In this document: piece after piece, positions 10,252-21,772 of the stretch
Position numbering within the stretch: the stretch's first letter is position 1
Layout: every line of letters starts with the position of its first letter
NCBI GenBank assembly: GCA_025361845.1
Contig: JANYJL010000032.1
Coordinates: forward strand, 1 to 37,709
DNA from: Rhizobacter sp.
GTDB taxonomy: Bacteria; Pseudomonadota; Gammaproteobacteria; Burkholderiales; Burkholderiaceae_C
DNA length: 37,709 nt
Direction: 5' to 3'
Program-made: the position numbers and the translations under genes
The notes under the pieces: generated by a model
What the model was told of the DNA's origin: nothing
The model's database searches: none
What the model saw: only the letters and a program-made list of their open reading frames with translations

Positions 10252-12111
10252 TCAACGACTGTGCGAGCTGAGAACCCCGAAGCGCTGGTCGTCCTGCCGC
10301 GCCAGCGAGCGACTGATGAGGTCACGGCGTTGCAGCGCCAGATCGGTGACGAGCACGTCGATGATCACCGTCTGCATCAGGCGCGAGACCATCGGCACGA
10401 GCGCCCCCACGTCGTCCGGGTGATCGACCGGCAGCACCACGTCGGCGAGCCGTGCCAGTTCGCTTTGCTGTGGGCACACGGCCACCACCGTCGCGCCGGC
10501 CTTGCGCGCACGCGCCACGGCCTCGTTGCTCGGGTCGTGCGTGCCGGAGTTCGAGAGCACCAGCAGCACGTCTTCCGCACTCAGGAAGGTGGCGGTCAGG
10601 CTCTGCAACTGCACGTCGGTGCGCGCCACCGCGACGAGGCCGAGGCGGCCGAGCTTGAGTTGCGCTTCGTCCGCCGTCGCAGTGGCGCTGCCGGTGCCGA
10701 AGATCTCGATGCGGCGGGCGCGCGCCAGCTCGCTCACCGCACGTTCGAAGGCCTCGGGCCGCAGCCGGTCGCGCAGGCCGACGAGGGCCGAGATCGAGTT
10801 GTTGAAGATCTTCGCAAAGCGCTCGGCCGCCGGATCGCCGGCATGCACTTCGGAGTGCGTCACCTGGGTGCTGCCGGTCAGGCCCGCGCCCAGGCGCAGC
10901 TTGAAATCGGCCAGGCCCTTGAAGCCCATCGAGCGGCAGAAGCGCAGCACCGTCGGCGTGCTGACCTTGCAGCGCTCGGCGATCTGCACCACCGGGTCGG
11001 TGAGCCAGGCGCGCGGGCCGGAGAGCACGTCTTGCGCAACCTGGCGTTCGGCGACGCTGAGGCGCACGAGCGCGATGCGCACTTCTTCGAGCAGGCGGCC
11101 TGCACCGTGCGCCGCGGCGAGGTGTTCGTCGAGCATCGCCGAGACGCCGCGCAGCGCGGTGCGCGGCGCCGCGATCACGTAGGTCGGGATGCGCGAGAGC
11201 CAGGGCGTGAAGCGACCCTTGCGCTCGAAGCGTTCGCGGAACTTGGAGGCCTGGAAGAAGCCCAGCACCTTGGGCACGATGCCGCCGCCGATGTAGAGGC
11301 CACCGACGCTGCCGAGCGTGAGCGCCAGGTTGCCCGCCACCGTGCCGAGCATCGCGCAGAACGCGGCGAGTGCGCGCTGCGCGATCGGGTCCGCGGGATC
11401 GGTTTGTGCTGCCGCCGAGATCTCGGCCGCACTCAGACGCGCCGGGCTGTGGCGTGCGTGTGCGGCGAGCGCTTCGTAGATCAATTCCAGCCCCGGCCCC
11501 GACACCAGGCGCTCGGCCGAGGCATGGCCGAAACGACGGTGCGCGAGTGCCACCGCGAGCACTTCGTCGGCGTCCTGCGGCGGGTAGGTGACATGGCCGC
11601 CTTCGGTGCCGAGCGCGACGTTGTGGTCCTGAAACGGCACCAGGCCCGACACGCCGAGCCCCGTGCCGGGGCCGAGCACGCCAAGTACGCCGCCGGCCTG
11701 CGGCGCGCCGCCGCCGACCTGCACGATCTCTTGCGCTTCGAGACCGGGCAGGCTCATCGCCAGTGCGGTGAAGTCGTTGACGACCAGCAGGGTTTGCAGC
11801 TTGAGGTTGCGCCGCACCGCCTCGATCGAGAACTCCCACTCGTGGTTCGTCAGCTTCACCCAATCGCCAGTGATCGGGTTGGCGAGCGAGAACGCCGCAT
11901 GCCGCACCGGCGGCGCACCGTGTTCATCCAGGAACGCACGCGCGGCGGCTTCGAGCGAAGCGTGGCGCTCCACCGGCACCACCTCGGCGGCCCAGAAACG
12001 CCCGGGTGCGGACTCGAGCGCGAAGCGCGCATTCGTGGCGCCCACGTCGGCCAGCAGGCGCAAACCGTCGGGGTAGACCACGTCGTCCAGAGAGGGGGTG
12101 TCCGTTGCCAT
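10252..12111 (-). CDS. glk: Bifunctional glucokinase / RpiR (HexR-like) transcriptional regulator
   Basis: A fusion of 619 residues. The N-terminal half (about 15-335) is a bacterial glucokinase that phosphorylates glucose with ATP: LLADVGATNARFAL phosphate loop, NDFTALAM with the catalytic Asp, GPGTGLGVSG, GTEGGHV, and LYIGGGIVPK. The C-terminal half has an RpiR helix-turn-helix (IAERCKVSTPTVLRFCRSMGF) and an SIS sugar-phosphate-binding domain (VLLVLSNSGTHDPSNEAV). Such fusions are known in Burkholderiales. The regulator half resembles HexR, which senses the Entner-Doudoroff intermediate KDPG. The start MATDTPS is preferred over an in-frame start 105 bp upstream, because the latter would lie beyond the promoter proposed here. 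It is divergent from the alpha-glucoside operon and probably regulates both itself and that operon. Confidence 0.95.
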   Translation of the reverse strand: MATDTPSLDDVVYPDGLRLLADVGATNARFALESAPGRFWAAEVVPVERHASLEAAARAFLDEHGAPPVRHAAFSLANPITGDWVKLTNHEWEFSIEAVRRNLKLQTLLVVNDFTALAMSLPGLEAQEIVQVGGGAPQAGGVLGVLGPGTGLGVSGLVPFQDHNVALGTEGGHVTYPPQDADEVLAVALAHRRFGHASAERLVSGPGLELIYEALAAHARHSPARLSAAEISAAAQTDPADPIAQRALAAFCAMLGTVAGNLALTLGSVGGLYIGGGIVPKVLGFFQASKFRERFERKGRFTPWLSRIPTYVIAAPRTALRGVSAMLDEHLAAAHGAGRLLEEVRIALVRLSVAERQVAQDVLSGPRAWLTDPVVQIAERCKVSTPTVLRFCRSMGFKGLADFKLRLGAGLTGSTQVTHSEVHAGDPAAERFAKIFNNSISALVGLRDRLRPEAFERAVSELARARRIEIFGTGSATATADEAQLKLGRLGLVAVARTDVQLQSLTATFLSAEDVLLVLSNSGTHDPSNEAVARARKAGATVVAVCPQQSELARLADVVLPVDHPDDVGALVPMVSRLMQTVIIDVLVTDLALQRRDLISRSLARQDDQRFGVLSSHSR

Positions 12112-12168: not shown

Positions 12169-12183
12169 TGTACTCAGATTACA
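12169..12183. promoter_or_regulatory. Candidate HexR/RpiR operator 1
   Basis: TGTACTCAGATTACA has outer arms TGTA/TACA and matches the general form of HexR sites (TGTA-N7-TACA). It shares 11 of 15 bases with the second site at 12318-12332, in the pattern TGTAC-N4-ATTACA. It lies 58 bp upstream of the glucokinase-regulator start and overlaps that gene's candidate -10 box, which suggests autoregulation. Confidence 0.65.
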
Positions 12184-12204
12184 TTCGGCCGCGCTCGGTT
12201 TCAA
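12178..12204 (-). promoter_or_regulatory. glk: Candidate promoter of the glucokinase-regulator gene
   Basis: On the minus strand TTGAAA (12204-12199) and TGTAAT (12183-12178) are separated by 15 bp. Each box matches five of six consensus bases, though the spacer is short. The -10 box falls inside the proposed operator at 12169-12183, so a bound repressor would block it. Confidence 0.4.
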
Positions 12205-12238
12205 GGGAGCGTTCACTGGCGTCCAAAAGATCGGGTTA

Positions 12239-12253
12239 CCCCGTAGAACGGGG
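12239..12253. terminator. Short hairpin in the divergent control region
   Basis: CCCCGT (12239-12244) and ACGGGG (12248-12253) form a perfect 6-bp stem with a 3-base loop between the two operators. On the plus strand it is followed by CAATTTG, on the minus strand by a short T run further on. It may insulate the divergent units or act as an attenuator; it lacks a clear U tract. Confidence 0.25.
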
Positions 12254-12317
12254 CAATTTGAAACCGCTTTGAGTCATCAACGGATTTCCACTAGGGAAAG
12301 CACTGATGCCACCTGGG

Positions 12318-12332
12318 TGTACGAAAATTACA
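12318..12332. promoter_or_regulatory. Candidate HexR/RpiR operator 2
   Basis: TGTACGAAAATTACA is the second copy of the TGTAC-N4-ATTACA pattern, 44 bp upstream of the sugar-binding-protein ATG and 134 bp from the end of site 1. Its position suggests that it controls the alpha-glucoside operon, with the divergent fusion protein as the obvious ligand-responsive regulator. I could not identify a convincing promoter to set beside it. Confidence 0.65.
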
Positions 12333-12376
12333 TTGCCTCGGCGTCTTCAGCGCCACTCCACCTTCGAGGAAATTCA

Positions 12377-13648
12377 ATGAAATTCAACACCACCCGGCTG
12401 CTCGCGGCTGTCACCCTGGCCTACGGCGCCGCGCTGAGCGCGCATGCCGCCACCATCACGATGTCCTGCGGCACGAACGCCGCCGACCTCGAGTACTGCG
12501 GCAAGTACGCTGAGGAATGGGCGAAGAAGAATGGCCACACCATCAAGATGTACTCGCCCCCGGCCAGCACCACCGACAACCTGGCCCTGCTGCGTCAGCA
12601 GTTCGCCGCCAAGTCGTCCGACTTCGACGTGCTCATGATCGACGTGGTCTGGCCCGGCGTCATCAAGGACCACCTGGTCGACCTGAAGAAGTACAGCAAG
12701 GGCGCCGAGTCCAAGCACTTCCCGGCGATCGTGGCCAACAACACCGTCGACGGCAAGCTGCTCGGCATGCCCTTCTTCACCGACGCCGGCCTGCTGTTCT
12801 ATCGCAAGGACCTGGTCGAGAAGTACGGCCTGAAGGCGCCGAATACCTGGGACGAGTTGACCGCTGCAGCCACCAAGATCCAGGAGGGCGAGCGCAAGGC
12901 CGGCTCGGCCGACTTCCAGGGTTTCGTGTTCCAGGCCAAGGCCTATGAAGGCTTGAGTTGCGATGCGCTGGAGTGGGTGGCCTCCTTCGGTGGCGGCGAG
13001 ATCGTCGACAAGGCCGGCAACATCACCATCAACAACCCGGGTGCCGCCAAGGCTCTGGACACCGCAGCCTCGTGGGTCGGCACCATCGCCCCGGGCGGCG
13101 TGCTGAACTACAACGAAGAAGACGCCCGCGGCGTGTGGCAGAACGGCAAGGCCGCCTTCATGCGCAACTGGCCCTACGCCTGGTCGCTGGGCCAGGCAGC
13201 CGACAGCCCGATCAAGGGCAAGATCGGCGTGGCCGCCTTGCCGGGCGGCAGCGGTGCCGGTGCGAAGAAGGCCGCCACGCTCGGCGGCTGGCAACTCGCG
13301 GTGTCGAAGTACTCGAAAAACGTCGATGCGGCGGCTGCGCTGGTGATGTACATGACGAGCCCGGAGATCCAGAAGAAGCGTGCCGTCGGCGGCTCCTACA
13401 ACCCGACGATTCCCGAGTTGTACAAGGACAAGGACATCGTCACCGCCAACCCGTTCATGGGTGAACTGCTCGACGTCTTCACCAACGCCGTGGCGCGCCC
13501 CGCTACCGCCACGGGCCTGAAGTACCCCGAAGTCAGCAATGCCTTCTGGGACGCAGCGCACGACGTGATGGAAAAGAAGGCCACCGGTGCCGAAGCCGTC
13601 AAGAAGCTCGAAGGTAAGCTGAAGCAGATCAAGCGCGCCAAGTGGTGA
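12377..13648 (+). CDS. ThuE-like sugar ABC transporter, periplasmic binding protein
   Basis: A 423-residue family 1 extracellular solute-binding protein. The Sec signal peptide MKFNTTRLLAAVTLAYGAALS is followed by a cleavage site after AHA (about residue 24). The segment FDVLMIDVVWPGVI resembles the trehalose/maltose-binding protein ThuE of rhizobia. The GAGGA box at 12366-12370 supports the ATG at 12377. It is the first gene of an operon with two permeases, three GH13 glucosidases and an ATPase, so the ligand is probably an alpha-linked glucose disaccharide such as maltose, trehalose, sucrose or isomaltose. Which of these cannot be decided from sequence. Hairpins just downstream may keep this gene expressed above the permeases. 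Confidence 0.92.
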   Translation: MKFNTTRLLAAVTLAYGAALSAHAATITMSCGTNAADLEYCGKYAEEWAKKNGHTIKMYSPPASTTDNLALLRQQFAAKSSDFDVLMIDVVWPGVIKDHLVDLKKYSKGAESKHFPAIVANNTVDGKLLGMPFFTDAGLLFYRKDLVEKYGLKAPNTWDELTAAATKIQEGERKAGSADFQGFVFQAKAYEGLSCDALEWVASFGGGEIVDKAGNITINNPGAAKALDTAASWVGTIAPGGVLNYNEEDARGVWQNGKAAFMRNWPYAWSLGQAADSPIKGKIGVAALPGGSGAGAKKAATLGGWQLAVSKYSKNVDAAAALVMYMTSPEIQKKRAVGGSYNPTIPELYKDKDIVTANPFMGELLDVFTNAVARPATATGLKYPEVSNAFWDAAHDVMEKKATGAEAVKKLEGKLKQIKRAKW

Positions 13649-13661
13649 GCTGATCGTGGGT

Positions 13662-13684
13662 GACTGTCGCCTCGCGCGGCAGTC
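13662..13684 (+). terminator. Intercistronic hairpin 1 after the binding-protein gene
   Basis: GACTGTCGC (13662-13670) pairs with GCGGCAGTC (13676-13684), nine pairs including one G-U, with a 5-base loop. There is no U tract. A hairpin here would partly stop transcription or protect the upstream mRNA end, a common way to keep binding protein in excess over permease. Confidence 0.45.
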
Positions 13685-13689
13685 CCTCC

Positions 13690-13720
13690 GGCGGGGTGGG
13701 GGTTGAGCCCGGACCCCGCC
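13690..13720 (+). terminator. Intercistronic hairpin 2 after the binding-protein gene
   Basis: GGCGGGGT (13690-13697) pairs perfectly with ACCCCGCC (13713-13720) around a 15-base loop. It follows the first hairpin by five bases and lies 30 bp before the permease ATG. Together they form a double stem in the gap between binding protein and permease. Confidence 0.4.
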
Positions 13721-13749
13721 AGTCCTTCTGTCTAGCGGCGGCAAACACC

Positions 13750-14664
13750 ATGAAAAACAGAGTTCGCACAGCTTGGCTGTTCCTGGCCCCGATGCTGGTC
13801 CTGATGATCCTGGTGGCCGGCTGGCCGCTCGGGCGTTCGCTCTGGTTCAGCCTGACCGAGACGAATATCAACGACATGTCGGCCAGCACCTTCATCGGGC
13901 TGGGCAACTACTGGGGCGAATTCGGCCTGTTCGGCAACCCGAACTACTCCGAAGGCTTCTGGCACAGCGATTGGGGTACGGCGATCGCCAACACCTTCAA
14001 GTTCTCGATCGTGTCGGTGGTGCTCGAAACCTTGTGCGGCCTCGGTGTGGCGATGCTGCTCAACCAGGAATTCAAGGGCCGCACCCTGGTGCGCACCGCG
14101 GTGCTCGTGCCGTGGGCGATCCCGACCATCGTCTCGGCCAAGATGTGGGGCTGGATCCTGCACGACCAGTTCGGTCTCGTGAACCAGTACCTGGTCGACT
14201 GGGGCCTGATCGCCAAGAAGATTGCCTTCACCGCCGACCCGTCCTGGGCGCTGTGGACGGTGGTCGGCGTCGATGTGTGGAAGACCACGCCCTTCATGGC
14301 GCTGCTGATCCTCGCGGCATTGCAGACGCTGCCCAAGGATTGTTATGAAGCCGCACGGGTCGACGGAGTGCACCCGCTGCGCCTGTTCTGGAAGGTGACG
14401 TTGCCGCTCATCAAGCACCCGCTGCTGGTAGCCGTGATCTTCCGCCTGCTCGATGCGCTGCGCATCTTCGACCTGATCTTCGTGCTCACTTCCAACAGCG
14501 GCAGCACCATCAGCATGTCGGGTTACGTGCGCCGCGAGATGGTCGACAACGGCAACATGGGCTACGGCTCGGCGGCTTCGACTTCGCTGACCTTGATCAT
14601 CTTCCTGTCGGCGCTGGTCTTCATGACAGCGGCGCGTGTCAAGTTGTCGGAGGAATCCAATTGA
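13750..14664 (+). CDS. ThuF-like sugar ABC transporter permease
   Basis: Inner-membrane permease of 304 residues with about six transmembrane segments, the first at AWLFLAPMLVLMILVAGWPL. The EAA loop that docks the ATPase reads EAARVDGVHPLRLFWKVTLPL (about 199-219). Its sequence follows ThuF closely through VLVPWAIPTIVSAKMWGW and DVWKTTPFMALLILAALQ. The ATG at 13750 leaves a short cytoplasmic N-terminus. It forms a heterodimer with the next gene's product, whose start overlaps its stop. Confidence 0.93.
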   Translation: MKNRVRTAWLFLAPMLVLMILVAGWPLGRSLWFSLTETNINDMSASTFIGLGNYWGEFGLFGNPNYSEGFWHSDWGTAIANTFKFSIVSVVLETLCGLGVAMLLNQEFKGRTLVRTAVLVPWAIPTIVSAKMWGWILHDQFGLVNQYLVDWGLIAKKIAFTADPSWALWTVVGVDVWKTTPFMALLILAALQTLPKDCYEAARVDGVHPLRLFWKVTLPLIKHPLLVAVIFRLLDALRIFDLIFVLTSNSGSTISMSGYVRREMVDNGNMGYGSAASTSLTLIIFLSALVFMTAARVKLSEESN

Positions 14665-15497
14665 ACCAACGTCCGCTCTGGGGCAACATCGTCCTGTATT
14701 TCCTGGCGACCTTGATCGTTGTCATCTCGGTCTACCCGTTTCTCTACACGATCGCGACCTCGTTCAAGTCGGGTTCGGCCTTGTTCGACGCCGCCCTGCT
14801 GCCCAACGACCCGACCTGGAAAAACTACGTCCAGCTGTTCGAAGGGCGCCAGCCATTCGGGCGCCACCTGCTGAACTCGATCATGGTGGCCACGGTCACG
14901 GTGGCGATCGCGATGGTGATGGCCATCACCGCGGCTTACGCGTTGGGTCGCATCCAGTTCAAGGGCAAGGCCCCGCTGATGCTCGCGATCCTGGCGGTGT
15001 CGATGTTCCCGCAAGTGGCGGTGCTGTCGGGCATGTTCGAACTGCTGCAAGCGCTGGGCCTGTACAACAAGGCGATTGGCCTCGTGGTGCCTTACACCGT
15101 GTTCACGCTGCCCTTCACGGTCTGGATTCTCACGACCTTCATGCGCGGCCTGCCGAAAGAGCTTGAAGAGGCCGCCATCATGGACGGTTGCGGCCCGCTG
15201 CGCATCATCTTCGAGGTCTTCATGCCGCTGCTCGCACCGGCGATGGTCTCGACCGGCCTGCTCGCCTTCATCGGCGCGTGGAACGAGTTCCTGTTCGCGC
15301 TGACGTTCGTCTCCGAAGACTCGCAACGCACCGTGCCGGTGAGCATCTCGTTGATCTCGGGCGCCACCGCGTTCGAGATTCCCTGGGGCAGCATCATGGC
15401 CGCGTCGGTCATCGTCACGGTGCCGCTGGTGGCCCTGGTGCTGGTGTTCCAGAAGAAGATCGTGTCCGGCCTGACGGCTGGTGCAGTCAAGGGCTGA
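14661..15497 (+). CDS. ThuG-like sugar ABC transporter permease
   Basis: Second permease, 278 residues, MalG family, with six predicted membrane segments and an EAA loop at EEAAIMDGCGPLRIIFEVFMPL. The start is an unusual TTG at 14661 that overlaps the upstream TGA (TTGA), preceded by GGAGGA at 14649-14654. The next in-frame ATG would delete the first membrane segment. It pairs with the ThuF-like permease in the membrane. Confidence 0.92.
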   Translation: MNQRPLWGNIVLYFLATLIVVISVYPFLYTIATSFKSGSALFDAALLPNDPTWKNYVQLFEGRQPFGRHLLNSIMVATVTVAIAMVMAITAAYALGRIQFKGKAPLMLAILAVSMFPQVAVLSGMFELLQALGLYNKAIGLVVPYTVFTLPFTVWILTTFMRGLPKELEEAAIMDGCGPLRIIFEVFMPLLAPAMVSTGLLAFIGAWNEFLFALTFVSEDSQRTVPVSISLISGATAFEIPWGSIMAASVIVTVPLVALVLVFQKKIVSGLTAGAVKG

Positions 15498-15513
15498 TCG
15501 ATCAGTCGGTGCG

Positions 15514-17157
15514 ATGAAAGCTGCGAACAGCAACTGGTGGCGCGGCGGGGTGATCTACCAGATCTACCCGCGCAGCTACCAGGACAGCAACGGCGACGGC
15601 ATCGGCGACCTGCCGGGCATCACGCGCCGGCTGGAGCACATCGCGCGCCTGGGGGCAGACGGCATCTGGCTCTCGCCCTTCTTCAAGAGCCCGATGAAGG
15701 ACTTCGGCTACGACATCACCGATTACTGCGATGTCGATCCGATGTTCGGCACCCTGGCCGACTTCAAGACCCTGGTGAGCCGCGCTCATGAACTGGGCCT
15801 GAAGGTGATGATCGATCAGGTGTACTCGCACACCGCCGACCTGCACCCTTGGTTCGTCGAAAGCCGTTCCAGCAAGACCAATGACAAGGCCGACTGGTAC
15901 GTCTGGGCGGATGCGAAGAACGACGGCAACCCGCCGAACAACTGGCTGTCGATCTTCGGCGGCAGCGCCTGGCAATGGGACACGCGGCGTAAGCAGTACT
16001 ACCTGCACAACTTCCTGACCAGCCAGCCCGATCTGAACTTCCACAGCCCGGCGGTGCAGGATGCCGTGCTCGCCTCGGTGAAGTTCTGGCTCGACTTCGG
16101 TGTCGATGGTTATCGCCTCGACGTCGTCAACTTCTACTTCCACGACCAGCAGCTGCGCGACAACCCCGGCCGCGGCATGCCCGACGGCAGTGACCCGGCG
16201 GTCAGCCCGGTCAACCCGTATGCTTGGCAGTGGCACCGGTTCGACAAGAGCCAGCCGGAGAACCTCGCCTTCCTGAAGCGCCTGCGCGCCCTGGTGGACT
16301 CGTACCCGGACACGACGATGGTCGGCGAGATCGGCGATGACGATGGCCTGGCTCGCGTCGCCGAATACACCGGCGGTGGCGACAAGCTGCACATGGCGTA
16401 CTGCTTCGACCTGCTGGGTGAGCCGCACAGTGCCACGTTCCTGCATGGCGTGTTCACGCGCTTCAATGAAGTCGTTGGCAGCGGCTGGCCCTGCTGGGCG
16501 CTGACCAACCACGACATCCCGCGCGTGGCCACGCGCTGGGGCGGCAGACAAGCGGCACCCGGTTTGCTCCGCCTGGCCGCTGCGCTGCAACTCAGCCTGC
16601 GTGGCACGGCGTGCATCTACCAAGGCGACGAACTCGGCCTGCCCGAAGCCGAATTGGCCTTCGAGGATCTGCAAGACCCTTACGGCATCACGATGTGGCC
16701 CGAGTACAAAGGCCGCGATGGCTGCCGCACACCGATGCCGTGGAGCCAGGCCGCTGCCGATCTCGGTTTCGGTTCAGTGGGTAGCAAGACGAAGCCGTGG
16801 TTGCCTGTCGCCGAAAGCCACCGCGCGCTCGCCGTCGATGCCCAAGAGGCCGATGCCGACTCTTTGTTGCACCATTACCGTCACCTGCTGGAATGGCGCC
16901 GCGGCCAGCCGGCGCTGATCCATGGCGACATGACATTGCTGCCCAAGCACGAGCAGGTGCTGGCCTTCGTGCGCAGCCACGGCGACAGACGGGTGCTGTG
17001 CGCCTTTAACCTGAGCGAGCGCACGGCCACGCTGGCGCTGCCTGCCGGCCTGCCAGCCGCGGAGCCGATCAACGGCAGCGGTGTTCGTGGTGCCAGCGTG
17101 CAAGGCGCCCAAGTGACGTTCGAGCCCTGGGCTTGCATCTTTTGCACCGTCTCATGA
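15514..17157 (+). CDS. Alpha-glucosidase, GH13 subfamily 23 type (copy 1)
   Basis: A 547-residue cytoplasmic glucosidase with no signal peptide, acting on imported alpha-glucosides. The layout matches the Halomonas enzyme HaG, with catalytic D203 (nucleophile, GYRLDVVNF), E272 (acid/base, VGEIGDD) and D334 (TNHDIPR). Each is offset by one from HaG D202/E271/D333. The residue after the nucleophile is V204; HaG has Thr there and prefers alpha-1,4 links, while Val in related enzymes goes with alpha-1,6 activity. It lies 16 bp after the permease gene and overlaps copy 2 by ATGA. The two copies are closely similar along their whole length, indicating tandem duplication. Confidence 0.93.
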   Translation: MKAANSNWWRGGVIYQIYPRSYQDSNGDGIGDLPGITRRLEHIARLGADGIWLSPFFKSPMKDFGYDITDYCDVDPMFGTLADFKTLVSRAHELGLKVMIDQVYSHTADLHPWFVESRSSKTNDKADWYVWADAKNDGNPPNNWLSIFGGSAWQWDTRRKQYYLHNFLTSQPDLNFHSPAVQDAVLASVKFWLDFGVDGYRLDVVNFYFHDQQLRDNPGRGMPDGSDPAVSPVNPYAWQWHRFDKSQPENLAFLKRLRALVDSYPDTTMVGEIGDDDGLARVAEYTGGGDKLHMAYCFDLLGEPHSATFLHGVFTRFNEVVGSGWPCWALTNHDIPRVATRWGGRQAAPGLLRLAAALQLSLRGTACIYQGDELGLPEAELAFEDLQDPYGITMWPEYKGRDGCRTPMPWSQAAADLGFGSVGSKTKPWLPVAESHRALAVDAQEADADSLLHHYRHLLEWRRGQPALIHGDMTLLPKHEQVLAFVRSHGDRRVLCAFNLSERTATLALPAGLPAAEPINGSGVRGASVQGAQVTFEPWACIFCTVS

Positions 17158-18824
17158 GCACCCAGAACGCCCCAGCCAAGGCACCCAACAACGGTTGGTG
17201 GCGCGCTGGTGTCATCTACCAGATCTATCCGCGCAGCTTTGCCGACAGCAATGGCGACGGCATCGGCGACCTGCGCGGCATCACGCGGCGGCTGGATCAT
17301 GTCGCCCAACTCGGGGTCGATGCCATCTGGCTCTCGCCGTTCCAGAAAAGTCCGATGAAGGACTTCGGCTACGACATCAGCGACTACTGCGATGTCGACC
17401 CGATGTTCGGCAACCTCGCCGACTTCAAGGCGATGGTCGCGCGTGCCCACGAACTCGGCCTGAAGGTCATGATCGACCAGGTGCTCTCGCACTGCTCCGA
17501 CCAGCACCCCTGGTTTATCGAGAGCCGCTCGAGCAAGACAAATGCGAAAGCCGACTGGTTCGTGTGGGCCGACGCGAAGGACGATGGCAACCCGCCGAAC
17601 AACTGGCTGTCGGTGTTCGGCGGCAGCTCGTGGCAGTGGGACACACGCCGCAAGCAGTACTACCTGCACAACTTCCTGACCAGCCAGCCCGACCTGAACT
17701 TCCACAACCCGGCGGTGCAGGATGCGCTGCTCGCCTCCGCCAAGTTCTGGCTCGACCTCGGCGTGGACGGCCTGCGCCTGGACGCCATCAACTTCTGCTA
17801 TCACGACGCCGAGTTGCGCAGCAACCCCGGCGCGGGCGAGCCCGATGGCAGCAACCCGACCGTGGCGGCATCGAACCCCTATGCCTGGCAGCACCACATC
17901 TACGACCGCAGCCGCCCCGAAGCGCTGGGCTTTCTGCAACGCATCCGCAGCTTGACCGACCAGTACCCGAACGCCGCGATGGTCGGCGAGATCGGCGACG
18001 AATCCGGCATGGTGATGGTGGCGCAGTACAGCAGTGGCGGCGACAAGCTGCACATGGGCTACTGCTTCGACCTGCTGGCCGATCGCTTCGATGCGAGCTA
18101 TGTGCGCGGCGTGATCGCCAAGTTCGAAAGTGTCGCGGCCGCGCCCGAGCAGGGCTGGGCCTGCTGGGCGCTCTCGAACCACGACTGCAAACGTGTCGCC
18201 ACCCGCTGGGGCGGCGCCAACCCGCCGGCCGGCCTGCTGCGCCTGATGCCGGCGCTGCAACTCAGCATGCGCGGCGCCGCCTGCATCTACCAGGGCGAAG
18301 AACTGGGCCTGCCCGAGGCCGACATCGCTTTTGAAGATCTGCAAGACCCGTATGGCAAGACCATGTGGCCGGAGTTCAAGGGCCGGGACGGTTGCCGCAC
18401 GCCCTTCCCCTGGGACTCGCGTGCCAGCGACCTCGGCTTCAACAGTGGCGCCAAGAACGGCAAGCCCTGGTTGCCTGTCGCGGAAAGCCACCGCGCCCTC
18501 GCGGTCGACCGGCAAGCGCTGGACGGCGGTTCGCTGCTGCACCGCTACCGCCATCTGCTGAAGTGGCGCAAGGCCCAGCCCGCGCTGATGAAGGGCGACC
18601 TGAGCCTGCTGCCCGCGCACGAGCAGGTGCTGGCCTACGTGCGCAGCGGTGGCAACGACCGCCTGCTGTGCGCCTTCAACCTGAGCCCGTTGCCGGCGAC
18701 CCTGTCGTTGGGCAGCGAGCGTGTTACCGCCGTCCTCGACGACAGCGGCGCCACAGGCGCCTCGGCGCAAGGCAGCACCGTCAACTTCGAACCCTGGGGC
18801 GTGATCTTCGCGCGCCTGGCCTAG
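17154..18824 (+). CDS. Alpha-glucosidase, GH13 subfamily 23 type (copy 2)
   Basis: A 556-residue paralogue of the preceding gene, also cytoplasmic, starting at ATGA overlap 17154-17157. The catalytic set is D210 (GLRLDAINF), E279 (VGEIGDE) and D344 (SNHDCKR). The residue after the nucleophile is A211, where copy 1 has Val; in GH13 glucosidases Ala or Thr here usually goes with alpha-1,4 specificity. DNA identity with copy 1 is especially high around 17580-17730. Retention of both copies with a different specificity residue suggests division of labour between linkage types; this is an inference. Confidence 0.93.
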   Translation: MSTQNAPAKAPNNGWWRAGVIYQIYPRSFADSNGDGIGDLRGITRRLDHVAQLGVDAIWLSPFQKSPMKDFGYDISDYCDVDPMFGNLADFKAMVARAHELGLKVMIDQVLSHCSDQHPWFIESRSSKTNAKADWFVWADAKDDGNPPNNWLSVFGGSSWQWDTRRKQYYLHNFLTSQPDLNFHNPAVQDALLASAKFWLDLGVDGLRLDAINFCYHDAELRSNPGAGEPDGSNPTVAASNPYAWQHHIYDRSRPEALGFLQRIRSLTDQYPNAAMVGEIGDESGMVMVAQYSSGGDKLHMGYCFDLLADRFDASYVRGVIAKFESVAAAPEQGWACWALSNHDCKRVATRWGGANPPAGLLRLMPALQLSMRGAACIYQGEELGLPEADIAFEDLQDPYGKTMWPEFKGRDGCRTPFPWDSRASDLGFNSGAKNGKPWLPVAESHRALAVDRQALDGGSLLHRYRHLLKWRKAQPALMKGDLSLLPAHEQVLAYVRSGGNDRLLCAFNLSPLPATLSLGSERVTAVLDDSGATGASAQGSTVNFEPWGVIFARLA

Positions 18825-18859
18825 TCAGATTTCCCCACCGTCCAACCACCGAGCACGCC

Positions 18860-19996
18860 ATGTCACGCATCGACTTCAAGAACATCAGCAAGCGGTATGC
18901 CCCTGGTCTGCCGATGACGATCAACAACGCCAACCTGACGATCGACAAGGGCGAGTTCTGCGTCTTCGTCGGCCCGTCCGGCTGCGGCAAGTCCACGCTG
19001 CTGCGCATGGTGGCGGGCCTGGAAGACATCACGGCCGGCGAACTCAGCATCGCCGGCAAGCGGGTCAACGACCTGCCGCCCGCCCAGCGCGGTGTGGCCA
19101 TGGTGTTCCAAAGTTACGCGCTCTACCCGCACATGACCGTCGCCGAAAACATGGCCTTCGGCCTGCGTGTGATGGGCTCGGACAAGGCCGAGATCGACCG
19201 CAAGGTCAAGAAGGCCGCCGACATCCTGCAACTCGGGCCGCTGATGGAACGCCTGCCCAAGGCCTTGTCCGGCGGCCAGCGTCAACGCGTCGCGATCGGC
19301 CGTGCCATCGTCAAGGAACCCGATGTGTTCCTGTTCGACGAACCGCTGTCGAACCTGGATGCCGCGCTGCGGGTGCAGACGCGCCTGGAAATCGCCAAGC
19401 TGCACCACGACATCGGCACCGCCAGCATGATCTACGTGACACACGATCAGGTCGAGGCGATGACGCTCGCCGACAAGATCGTGCTACTGCGCGCCGGCAA
19501 GGGTGTCGAGACGGACGGCAGCGTGGCCCAGTTCGGCACGCCGATGGACCTGTACCACCGGCCGCAGAACCTGTTCGTCGCCGAGTTCATCGGCAGCCCG
19601 AAGATGAACGTGATGCCCGGCAAGTTCGTGCGTGCGGAGGGCGACTACGCCGTCGTCGAGGTGCACGGCGAACAGATCACGGTGGCCGTCGATGCACGCT
19701 CCGCGCAAGCAGGTGCCGCGGTCACGATCGGCATTCGCCCCGAGCATTTGCTGGCCGGTGAGGAGGGCCCGGGCTCGCCGCTGCACGTCACCCTGTTCCA
19801 GATGGAACGGCTGGGCGACAGCTCGCTGCTCTACCTCACGGTGGCTCCCGGCGCGCCGCTGGCCACGCTGCGCCTCGAAGGGCACGCAACGCAATCCACC
19901 GGCGACCGCGTCACGCTGCGCCTGCGGCCCGAGCAGTGCCATCTGTTCGACGCGCAAGGCCAGGCCTTCCGCCGCACGGTTCAACTTCCCGCCTGA
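18860..19996 (+). CDS. Sugar ABC transporter ATPase (MsmK/UgpC/ThuK type)
   Basis: The 378-residue ATPase that powers the ThuEFG-like importer. Walker A is GPSGCGKST at 38-46, followed by a Q loop (MVFQSYALYPHMTV), signature LSGGQRQRVAIGRA, Walker B VFLFDEPLSNLD and the switch His (YVTHDQ). The C-terminal ~130 residues form the TOBE/OB regulatory domain typical of MalK-like proteins (GIRPEHL and related segments). These proteins can be the target of inducer exclusion. It sits between glucosidase copies 2 and 3, so the operon interleaves transport and hydrolysis genes. Confidence 0.95.
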   Translation: MSRIDFKNISKRYAPGLPMTINNANLTIDKGEFCVFVGPSGCGKSTLLRMVAGLEDITAGELSIAGKRVNDLPPAQRGVAMVFQSYALYPHMTVAENMAFGLRVMGSDKAEIDRKVKKAADILQLGPLMERLPKALSGGQRQRVAIGRAIVKEPDVFLFDEPLSNLDAALRVQTRLEIAKLHHDIGTASMIYVTHDQVEAMTLADKIVLLRAGKGVETDGSVAQFGTPMDLYHRPQNLFVAEFIGSPKMNVMPGKFVRAEGDYAVVEVHGEQITVAVDARSAQAGAAVTIGIRPEHLLAGEEGPGSPLHVTLFQMERLGDSSLLYLTVAPGAPLATLRLEGHATQSTGDRVTLRLRPEQCHLFDAQGQAFRRTVQLPA

Positions 19997-20068
19997 CGCC
20001 GATCACTTCGTGTCGGTGCTCCCAAGGCGGGGGCATGCATCGGCACGTCCGTTTCAAAGGAGACGTGC

Positions 20069-21772
20069 ATGAAGAAGACGTGGTGGAAAGAGTCCGTCGT
20101 CTACCAGATCTACCCGCGCAGCTTTTGCGACAGCAATGGCGACGGCGTCGGTGACCTGCCGGGCATCAGCTCGAAGCTCGATCACCTGAAGACGCTCGGC
20201 GTCAACGTGGTCTGGTTGTCGCCGGTCTACAAGTCGCCCAACGACGACAACGGCTACGACATCAGCGACTACCGCGCCATCATGGACGAGTTCGGAACCA
20301 TGGCCGACTTCGACACCATGCTCGCCGGCATGCACGAACGCGGCATCAAGCTCGTGATGGACCTGGTGGTGAACCACACGTCCGATGAACACGCCTGGTT
20401 CCAGGAGGCGAAGAAGTCGCGCGACAACCCGTACCACGACTACTACATCTGGCGTGAAGCCAAGGATGGCCGCGAGCCGAACAACTGGGAGGCCGCCTTC
20501 AGCGGCTCGGCCTGGCAGTGGAACGAGGCGACGGGCGAGTACTTCCTGCACATGTTCTCGAAGAAGCAGCCGGACCTGAACTGGGAGAACCCGAAGGTCC
20601 GCGCCGAGGTCTTCGAGATGATGCACTTCTGGTTCAAGAAGGGCGTCGACGGCTTCCGCATGGACGTCATCAACATGATCTCCAAGCCGTGTGCGGCCGA
20701 TGGCAGCCTGCCCGATGCGCCGGTGATCCGGCCCGGCTTCCTGCAACCCGGCTTCATGATGGTGACCAATGGGCCCAAGCTGCTCGACCACCTGGCCGAG
20801 ATGAAACGCGAGGTCCTGGCGAAATACGACTGCATGTCGGTCGGCGAGGCACCGCTGGCGACCATCAAGCAGGGTGTGGAGATCACGAACGAAGAGACCG
20901 GCTCGCTCAACATGCTGTTCCAGTTCGAGCACATGGACCTCGACTCGATCGGCGGCCACATGATGGGCAAGTGGGCGTACAAGCCGCTGGAGCTGCACGA
21001 TCTGAAGGCGACGATGACCCGCTGGCAGAACGCGCTGGACGGCCGTGGCTGGAACAGCCTGTACCTGTCGAACCACGACCAGCCGCGACCGGTCTCGCGC
21101 TTCGGTGACGACAAACAATACCGCGTCGAATCGGCCAAGATGCTCGGCACCTTCCTGCACTTCATGCAGGGCACGCCCTACGTTTATCAGGGCGAAGAGA
21201 TCGGCATGACGAACGTGCGCTTCGCGACGATCGAGGAGTACCAGGACATCGAGTCCGTCAACATGTACCGGGAGGCGGTGAACGATCGCCACATGAAGCC
21301 CGCCGAGGTGCTGGAATCCATCTACGCCAAGGGCCGTGACAACGCGCGCACACCCTTGCAGTGGGATGCGAGCGCGAACGCCTGTTTCACGAGTGGCAAG
21401 CCGTGGTTGAAGCTGAACCCGAACTACCGCGAGGTCAACGCGGCGCAGGCCCTCGCCGATCCGGACTCGGTGTTTCACTACTACCGGCGGCTGATCGCAC
21501 TGCGCAAGGCGAACCCGGTGATGGTTTACGGGCACTACGCGCTGATCCTGGCCGAGCACCCGGAGATCTACGCCTACACCCGCACGCTCGAGGGCGATCG
21601 GCTGCTGGTCGTCTGCAACTTCAGCGGCAACACGCCGATGTTCAAGCTGCCGGCGGACATCAACTTCGGCGCGGCCGAACTGGTGATCGCCAATCTCGAT
21701 GTCGCCTCCGGCACCGACCTGCGAGCGCTGATGCTGCGGCCCTGGGAGTCGCGTGTCTACCGGCTGCGCTGA
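20069..21772 (+). CDS. Oligo-1,6-glucosidase-type alpha-glucosidase (GH13)
   Basis: A 567-residue cytoplasmic GH13 enzyme of the oligo-1,6-glucosidase/sucrase-isomaltase-like group, distinct from the two copies upstream. Catalytic residues are D199 (GFRMDVIN), E260 (VGEAP) and D337 (NHDQPR). V200 corresponds to the Val that gives Bacillus oligo-1,6-glucosidase its alpha-1,6 specificity. QPDLNWENP is also typical of the group. AAGGAG at 20056-20061 precedes the ATG. It is the last gene of the operon and probably cleaves isomaltose, panose or similar sugars; trehalulose or sucrose activity is also possible. A strong hairpin follows. Confidence 0.92.
   Translation: MKKTWWKESVVYQIYPRSFCDSNGDGVGDLPGISSKLDHLKTLGVNVVWLSPVYKSPNDDNGYDISDYRAIMDEFGTMADFDTMLAGMHERGIKLVMDLVVNHTSDEHAWFQEAKKSRDNPYHDYYIWREAKDGREPNNWEAAFSGSAWQWNEATGEYFLHMFSKKQPDLNWENPKVRAEVFEMMHFWFKKGVDGFRMDVINMISKPCAADGSLPDAPVIRPGFLQPGFMMVTNGPKLLDHLAEMKREVLAKYDCMSVGEAPLATIKQGVEITNEETGSLNMLFQFEHMDLDSIGGHMMGKWAYKPLELHDLKATMTRWQNALDGRGWNSLYLSNHDQPRPVSRFGDDKQYRVESAKMLGTFLHFMQGTPYVYQGEEIGMTNVRFATIEEYQDIESVNMYREAVNDRHMKPAEVLESIYAKGRDNARTPLQWDASANACFTSGKPWLKLNPNYREVNAAQALADPDSVFHYYRRLIALRKANPVMVYGHYALILAEHPEIYAYTRTLEGDRLLVVCNFSGNTPMFKLPADINFGAAELVIANLDVASGTDLRALMLRPWESRVYRLR

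Follow-up and report, generated by a model that had tools for sequence, protein, structure and literature searches.

Which protein acts at the pair of palindromes lying between a glucokinase-regulator fusion gene and a divergent alpha-glucoside operon in Rhizobacter sp., and what would it control from there? The window, by which we mean the whole stretch of DNA analyzed (37,709 nucleotides), contains the putative operators O1 (TGTACTCAGATTACA, minus strand TGTAATCTGAGTACA; 12169 to 12183) and O2 (TGTACGAAAATTACA, minus strand TGTAATTTTCGTACA; 12318 to 12332), neither with an assigned strand, exactly where an earlier note had placed two HexR-like 15-mers. Both are exact TGTA-N7-TACA palindromes of 15 bases, the HexR-type form that had been proposed for them, and they lie within a 265-bp gap between divergent starts at 12111 (minus strand) and 12377 (plus strand). 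One site accompanies each divergent gene, again as described before: the fusion-proximal O1 is located 57 bases ahead of the ATG of the Glk-RpiR fusion, and the operon-proximal O2 is located 44 bases ahead of the ATG of the binding protein. The pattern that the two sites were said to share, TGTACNNNNATTACA, matched the window exactly twice, and at two or fewer mismatches its observed match count in the window was reached by none of 100 shuffles, confirming the twin-site observation.

We considered that the two palindromes might have arisen by chance in an intergenic gap richer in A+T, given that only eight bases are fixed in TGTA-N7-TACA and that the remaining copies in the genome appear random. 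The form is not enriched genome-wide in general, with 16 places in the 4.5-Mb assembly versus 26 for a reversed control, and 9 of the 13 other places examined were inside long, high-GC3 ORFs. The two next-best genome matches to the HexR form both sit within coding sequence and were rejected as extra regulon members on that account. However, the Poisson chance of two palindromes falling within one 265-bp gap is ~4.4e-7, and the conservation of the pair in all relatives already contradicts chance, such that we regard coincidence as extremely improbable.

Conservation was assessed with orthologues gathered from the family, the order, the nearest genus, and named genomes. Each of the seven genomes in the window's clade carries one site beside each divergent gene; O1 has a counterpart in six relatives, and O2, together with its 'AA' flank, is conserved in seven genomes. 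Leptothrix discophora, Sphaerotilus mobilis, and the genomes G059, G640, and G646 have the same two genes in divergent orientation, with one site per gene, and the operon-side site of these five relatives aligns with O2, AA flank included. A first impression that Sphaerotilus hippei had lost its sites was ruled out: a LacI-family gene (L017:4943-5971) is inserted between operon and fusion in this species, and both sites were found beyond it, kept inside the new divergent gap made by the insertion. The sequence TGTARTNNNNYTACA matches exactly once in the whole genome of each of L. discophora, G059, and S. hippei, in every case at the operon-side site, and has no exact match genome-wide in S. 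mobilis, whose two sites are one-mismatch matches. Among the 32 orthologue loci, 22 held at least two sites at one mismatch or fewer (shuffle mean, 0.02), and at least one exact site was present at 19 (shuffles, 0.02).

The presumed binder of these sites is encoded on one side of the gap. The Glk-RpiR fusion (10252 to 12111, minus strand; 619 aa) consists of a glucokinase domain (residues 19 to 329) followed by HTH_6 (340 to 408) and SIS (461 to 589) domains, the RpiR HTH and SIS being matched by PF01418 and PF01380. Among curated models, PRK14101 ('bifunctional transcriptional regulator/glucokinase') fits it best; the fusion carries the corresponding order of glucokinase and then RpiR regulator in one chain and scored 844.6 bits, below the cut-off of 920, while the zwf-linked fusion L175 reached 1186 bits. 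Aligned over 276 aa, the RpiR part and E. coli HexR are 35% identical. Against the curated HexR model NF008451, the fusion scored 183.7 bits, below the cut-off of 296, and a standalone zwf-linked HexR stretch, at 267.9 bits, was also under it. The claim that a HexR-like domain adjoins the sites stood with respect to the RpiR HTH and SIS encoded next door; HexR membership in the strict sense was not supported. On the other side of the gap, a plus-strand operon begins with a sugar ABC transporter substrate-binding protein (SBP_bac_1; 12377 to 13648), which is 72 to 87% identical in relatives, and continues with MalF/UgpA-like (13747 to 14664) and MalG-like (14661 to 15497) ABC permeases, two GH13 alpha-glucosidase-like enzymes (15514 to 17157 and 17154 to 18824), a MalK/UgpC-like ABC ATPase (18860 to 19996, start codon estimated), and a TreC-like GH13 enzyme (20069 to 21772). 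From family knowledge, we take the role of this operon (12377 to 21772) to be alpha-glucoside uptake and hydrolysis.

The arrangement of sites across Burkholderiales points to the fusion as the binder. Elsewhere in the family, most genera encode the fusion divergently from a plain glucokinase gene, and GGTAGCAAAACTACA then usually lies beside the glucokinase gene and TGTAGY-N3-RCTACA beside the fusion. Divergent fusions in the wider Burkholderiales almost always have sites, usually one per gene, and fusions that are co-directional behind a GH13 gene, glk, or zwf as a rule have no site ahead of the fusion. Six fusions are zwf-linked; in four of these (L165 to L168), zwf is preceded by an exact TGTAGT-type palindrome, one has one-mismatch sites in the zwf/edd gap, and one has none. 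The site thus tracks the promoter from which the fusion is transcribed, an argument for the fusion as its binder. Given the nonrandom, clade-conserved pair and this rule of site placement, O1 and O2 are best explained as operators of the divergently encoded fusion, a reading that we hold to be quite probable, and they are most likely bound by the fusion itself. Two further arrangements were observed in this survey. One lineage of fusions whose recognition helix contains Asp (L180, L181, and L182; family f23) has three upstream TGTAAT-type palindromes instead of two, and three genomes (G514, G307, and G596; L171 to L173) encode two Glk-RpiR fusions ~10 to 15 kb apart, one of them directly behind a GH13 gene.

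The earlier note had named Entner-Doudoroff genes as the place to look for further sites, and this expectation failed: no site precedes zwf (L094) or edd (L121) in the window genome, whose assembly is 90.65% complete in 399 contigs. The only zwf found in this 90.65% complete genome is another paralogue, without HexR, and we rejected membership of the Entner-Doudoroff regulon here given that zwf and edd are without sites. In the window genome, edd is broken up between two overlapping frames (G000:C47:4868-6671; L121 and L122), probably through an assembly error or a frameshift. One alternative is that the fusion runs an Entner-Doudoroff regulon here with KDPG as effector, as the homologous PRK14101-type fusions appear to do behind zwf, those of L165 to L168 having TGTAGT-type palindromes before zwf, but the siteless zwf and edd, the scores under both curated cut-offs (HexR and PRK14101), and the replacement of an effector-loop Arg in the window clade, described below, make this quite unlikely.

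Another alternative, which we consider unlikely, is that O1 and O2 belong to a standalone HexR (or an RccR-like protein) of central metabolism and that the fusion merely adjoins them. RpiR motifs are alike, and relatives do encode such a protein: a separate RpiR gene comes immediately after zwf in S. hippei, S. mobilis, L. discophora, and G059, and these proteins are 38 to 40% identical to E. coli HexR. However, the zwf (beside HexR) and edd of those four relatives carry another element instead, e.g., TGAAACAAAGTTACA or TGTAACTTAGTTTCG, with the consensus TGWAAC-N3-GTTWCR; exact TGTAAT-type sites are confined to the fusion locus; and the window genome (90.65% complete, 399 contigs) yielded no standalone HexR-like gene. 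It looks as though zwf and edd of these relatives are regulated by a different, standalone HexR with different half-sites. E. coli zwf, which served as a positive control, has TGTAATTTTCTTACG, differing by one base from the site of G059, G640, and G646. We also observed a GTAAC-N5-GTTAC-type palindrome upstream of ppc (PEP carboxylase) in each of the nine family genomes whose close ppc orthologue was examined (G000:C120:25632-25646, corresponding to L204:1533-1547; ppc upstream regions L205 to L213); a more distant orthologue (L214) was without it. This palindrome resembles the standalone HexR element, yet it is also present with other fusion types, and ppc was not assigned to the regulon given that the element occurs in relatives irrespective of fusion type.

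The protein sequences were compared at the recognition helix and the effector loop. In a tree of RpiR parts, the window clade (support 1.0) falls outside the group of E. coli HexR, standalone HexRs, and PRK14101-type fusions (support 0.82, with a distant outgroup). The fusion keeps the Arg pair of the recognition helix motif RFCR, the counterparts of Arg54 and Arg57 of P. putida HexR. The residue after 'VS' in this helix, to which Glu49 of P. putida HexR aligns, is Thr in the window clade, Gln in other fusions, Lys in standalone HexR, Asp in a further family, and Glu in E. coli. A homology model led to Glu49 being named as a residue that recognizes DNA (PMC5902321). Half-site bases 5 and 6 vary along with this residue and are mostly AT with Thr (TGTAAT), GY with Gln (TGTAGY), AC with Lys (TGWAAC), AT with Asp (TGTAAT), and AT or AG with Glu (TGTAAT in E. 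coli). The solved regulators 8ju9 and 8k3b, which we believe to be RccR, have Glu at this position and presumably pair it with TGTAGT. The correlation is a suggestive lead in which each class is essentially one lineage; for this reason, and because Glu would also pair with TGTAGT, we rejected a simple one-residue helix code. SpNanR, which reads DNA mostly indirectly (PMC12713135), was a further reason not to accept one.

After the SIS loop motif S-x-[ST]-G, E. coli HexR, four standalone HexRs, and five zwf-linked fusions all have Arg, and five window-clade proteins have Thr, Ala, or Glu. Given that HexR and RccR answer to acidic KDPG (PMC5489143, PMC5902321), the missing loop Arg makes KDPG doubtful as the effector of the window clade, and we infer a different signal for this clade, the simplest candidate being glucose 6-phosphate produced by the fused kinase, an argument drawn from context and from a single loop position. 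We propose that a dimer of the RpiR domain of the fusion would bind O1 and repress its own gene, whose -10 region it probably covers, and would repress the alpha-glucoside ABC/GH13 operon from O2. Imported alpha-glucoside would be hydrolyzed to glucose, from which the kinase half would make glucose 6-phosphate; this compound or a close derivative may then bind the SIS domain and release the DNA.

Repression by promoter occlusion is plausible from the placement of the candidate promoters. The best minus-strand candidate, TTGAAA-N17-TAATCT (12176 to 12204; 5/6 and 3/6 consensus bases), has its -10 inside O1, and the best operon candidate, ATGCCA-N17-TACATT (12306 to 12334, plus strand), has a -10 that overlaps the end of O2. 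Both are weak, matching 8 of 12 consensus bases each, and a threshold promoter scan returned no promoter at its cut-off, neither candidate reaching it. The reported overlap of O1 with a -10 box is weak and at most suggestive.

The fusion resembles HexR in its HTH_6 and SIS domains, in its RFCR helix, and in having a 15-bp TGTA-N7-TACA operator near its own gene. Published sites are TGTAATTAAATTACA for HexR and TGTAGT-N3-ACTACA for RccR, and Pseudomonas HexR represses in its apo form (PMC11906056, PMC5489143, PMC5902321); HexR can repress or activate depending on position (PMC11906056). Unlike HexR, the window protein is fused behind a glucokinase, scores under the HexR cut-off, has its sites at an alpha-glucoside operon and its own gene instead of zwf/edd, and belongs to a clade without the effector-loop Arg. 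With PRK14101 it shares domain order, length, homology along the whole protein, and operator form, whereas it falls below that cut-off, forms a separate clade in the RpiR tree, and differs in half-site bases 5 and 6 (AT versus GY) and in the recognition-helix residue (Thr versus Gln). RccR of Pseudomonas, another RpiR-family protein with paired 15-bp operators (TGTAGTTTTACTACT and TGTAGTAAAACTACA, 68 bp apart before aceE; PMC5489143), differs in being standalone, KDPG responsive, and in control of pyruvate/glyoxylate genes. The original reading of the sites as HexR-like operators stood in the HexR/RccR form, the HexR-like neighbor, and the conserved pair, and it was not supported for Entner-Doudoroff regulon membership or at the strict HexR cut-off. 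The operator type is a known one (HexR-like), which in this clade seems to serve an unexpected local target, a sugar operon, instead of central glucose metabolism. The regulon of the window clade looks local, with two sites only, and not Entner-Doudoroff. We tentatively suggest, with somewhat less than even confidence, that a side branch of HexR-like fusions left the Entner-Doudoroff regulon and became a self-contained alpha-glucoside switch whose kinase half makes the signal (glucose 6-phosphate or a relative) that is read by its DNA-binding half. Such a two-site system is experimentally small and could be used to ask if a regulator-fused kinase senses its own product, and RpiR proteins with matched, differing half-sites offer a set for studying DNA recognition in a poorly understood family.

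A LacI-type operator was also suspected in the window gap from TTTGAAACCGCTTTGAG and was rejected given that no even palindrome of 14 to 20 bases reached 75% symmetry. In L016 and L018, TCGCAATCGATTGCGA, a perfect 16-base palindrome in the style of a LacI operator, lies between the two operators, which suggests that a second regulator may act on the alpha-glucoside operon at these loci.
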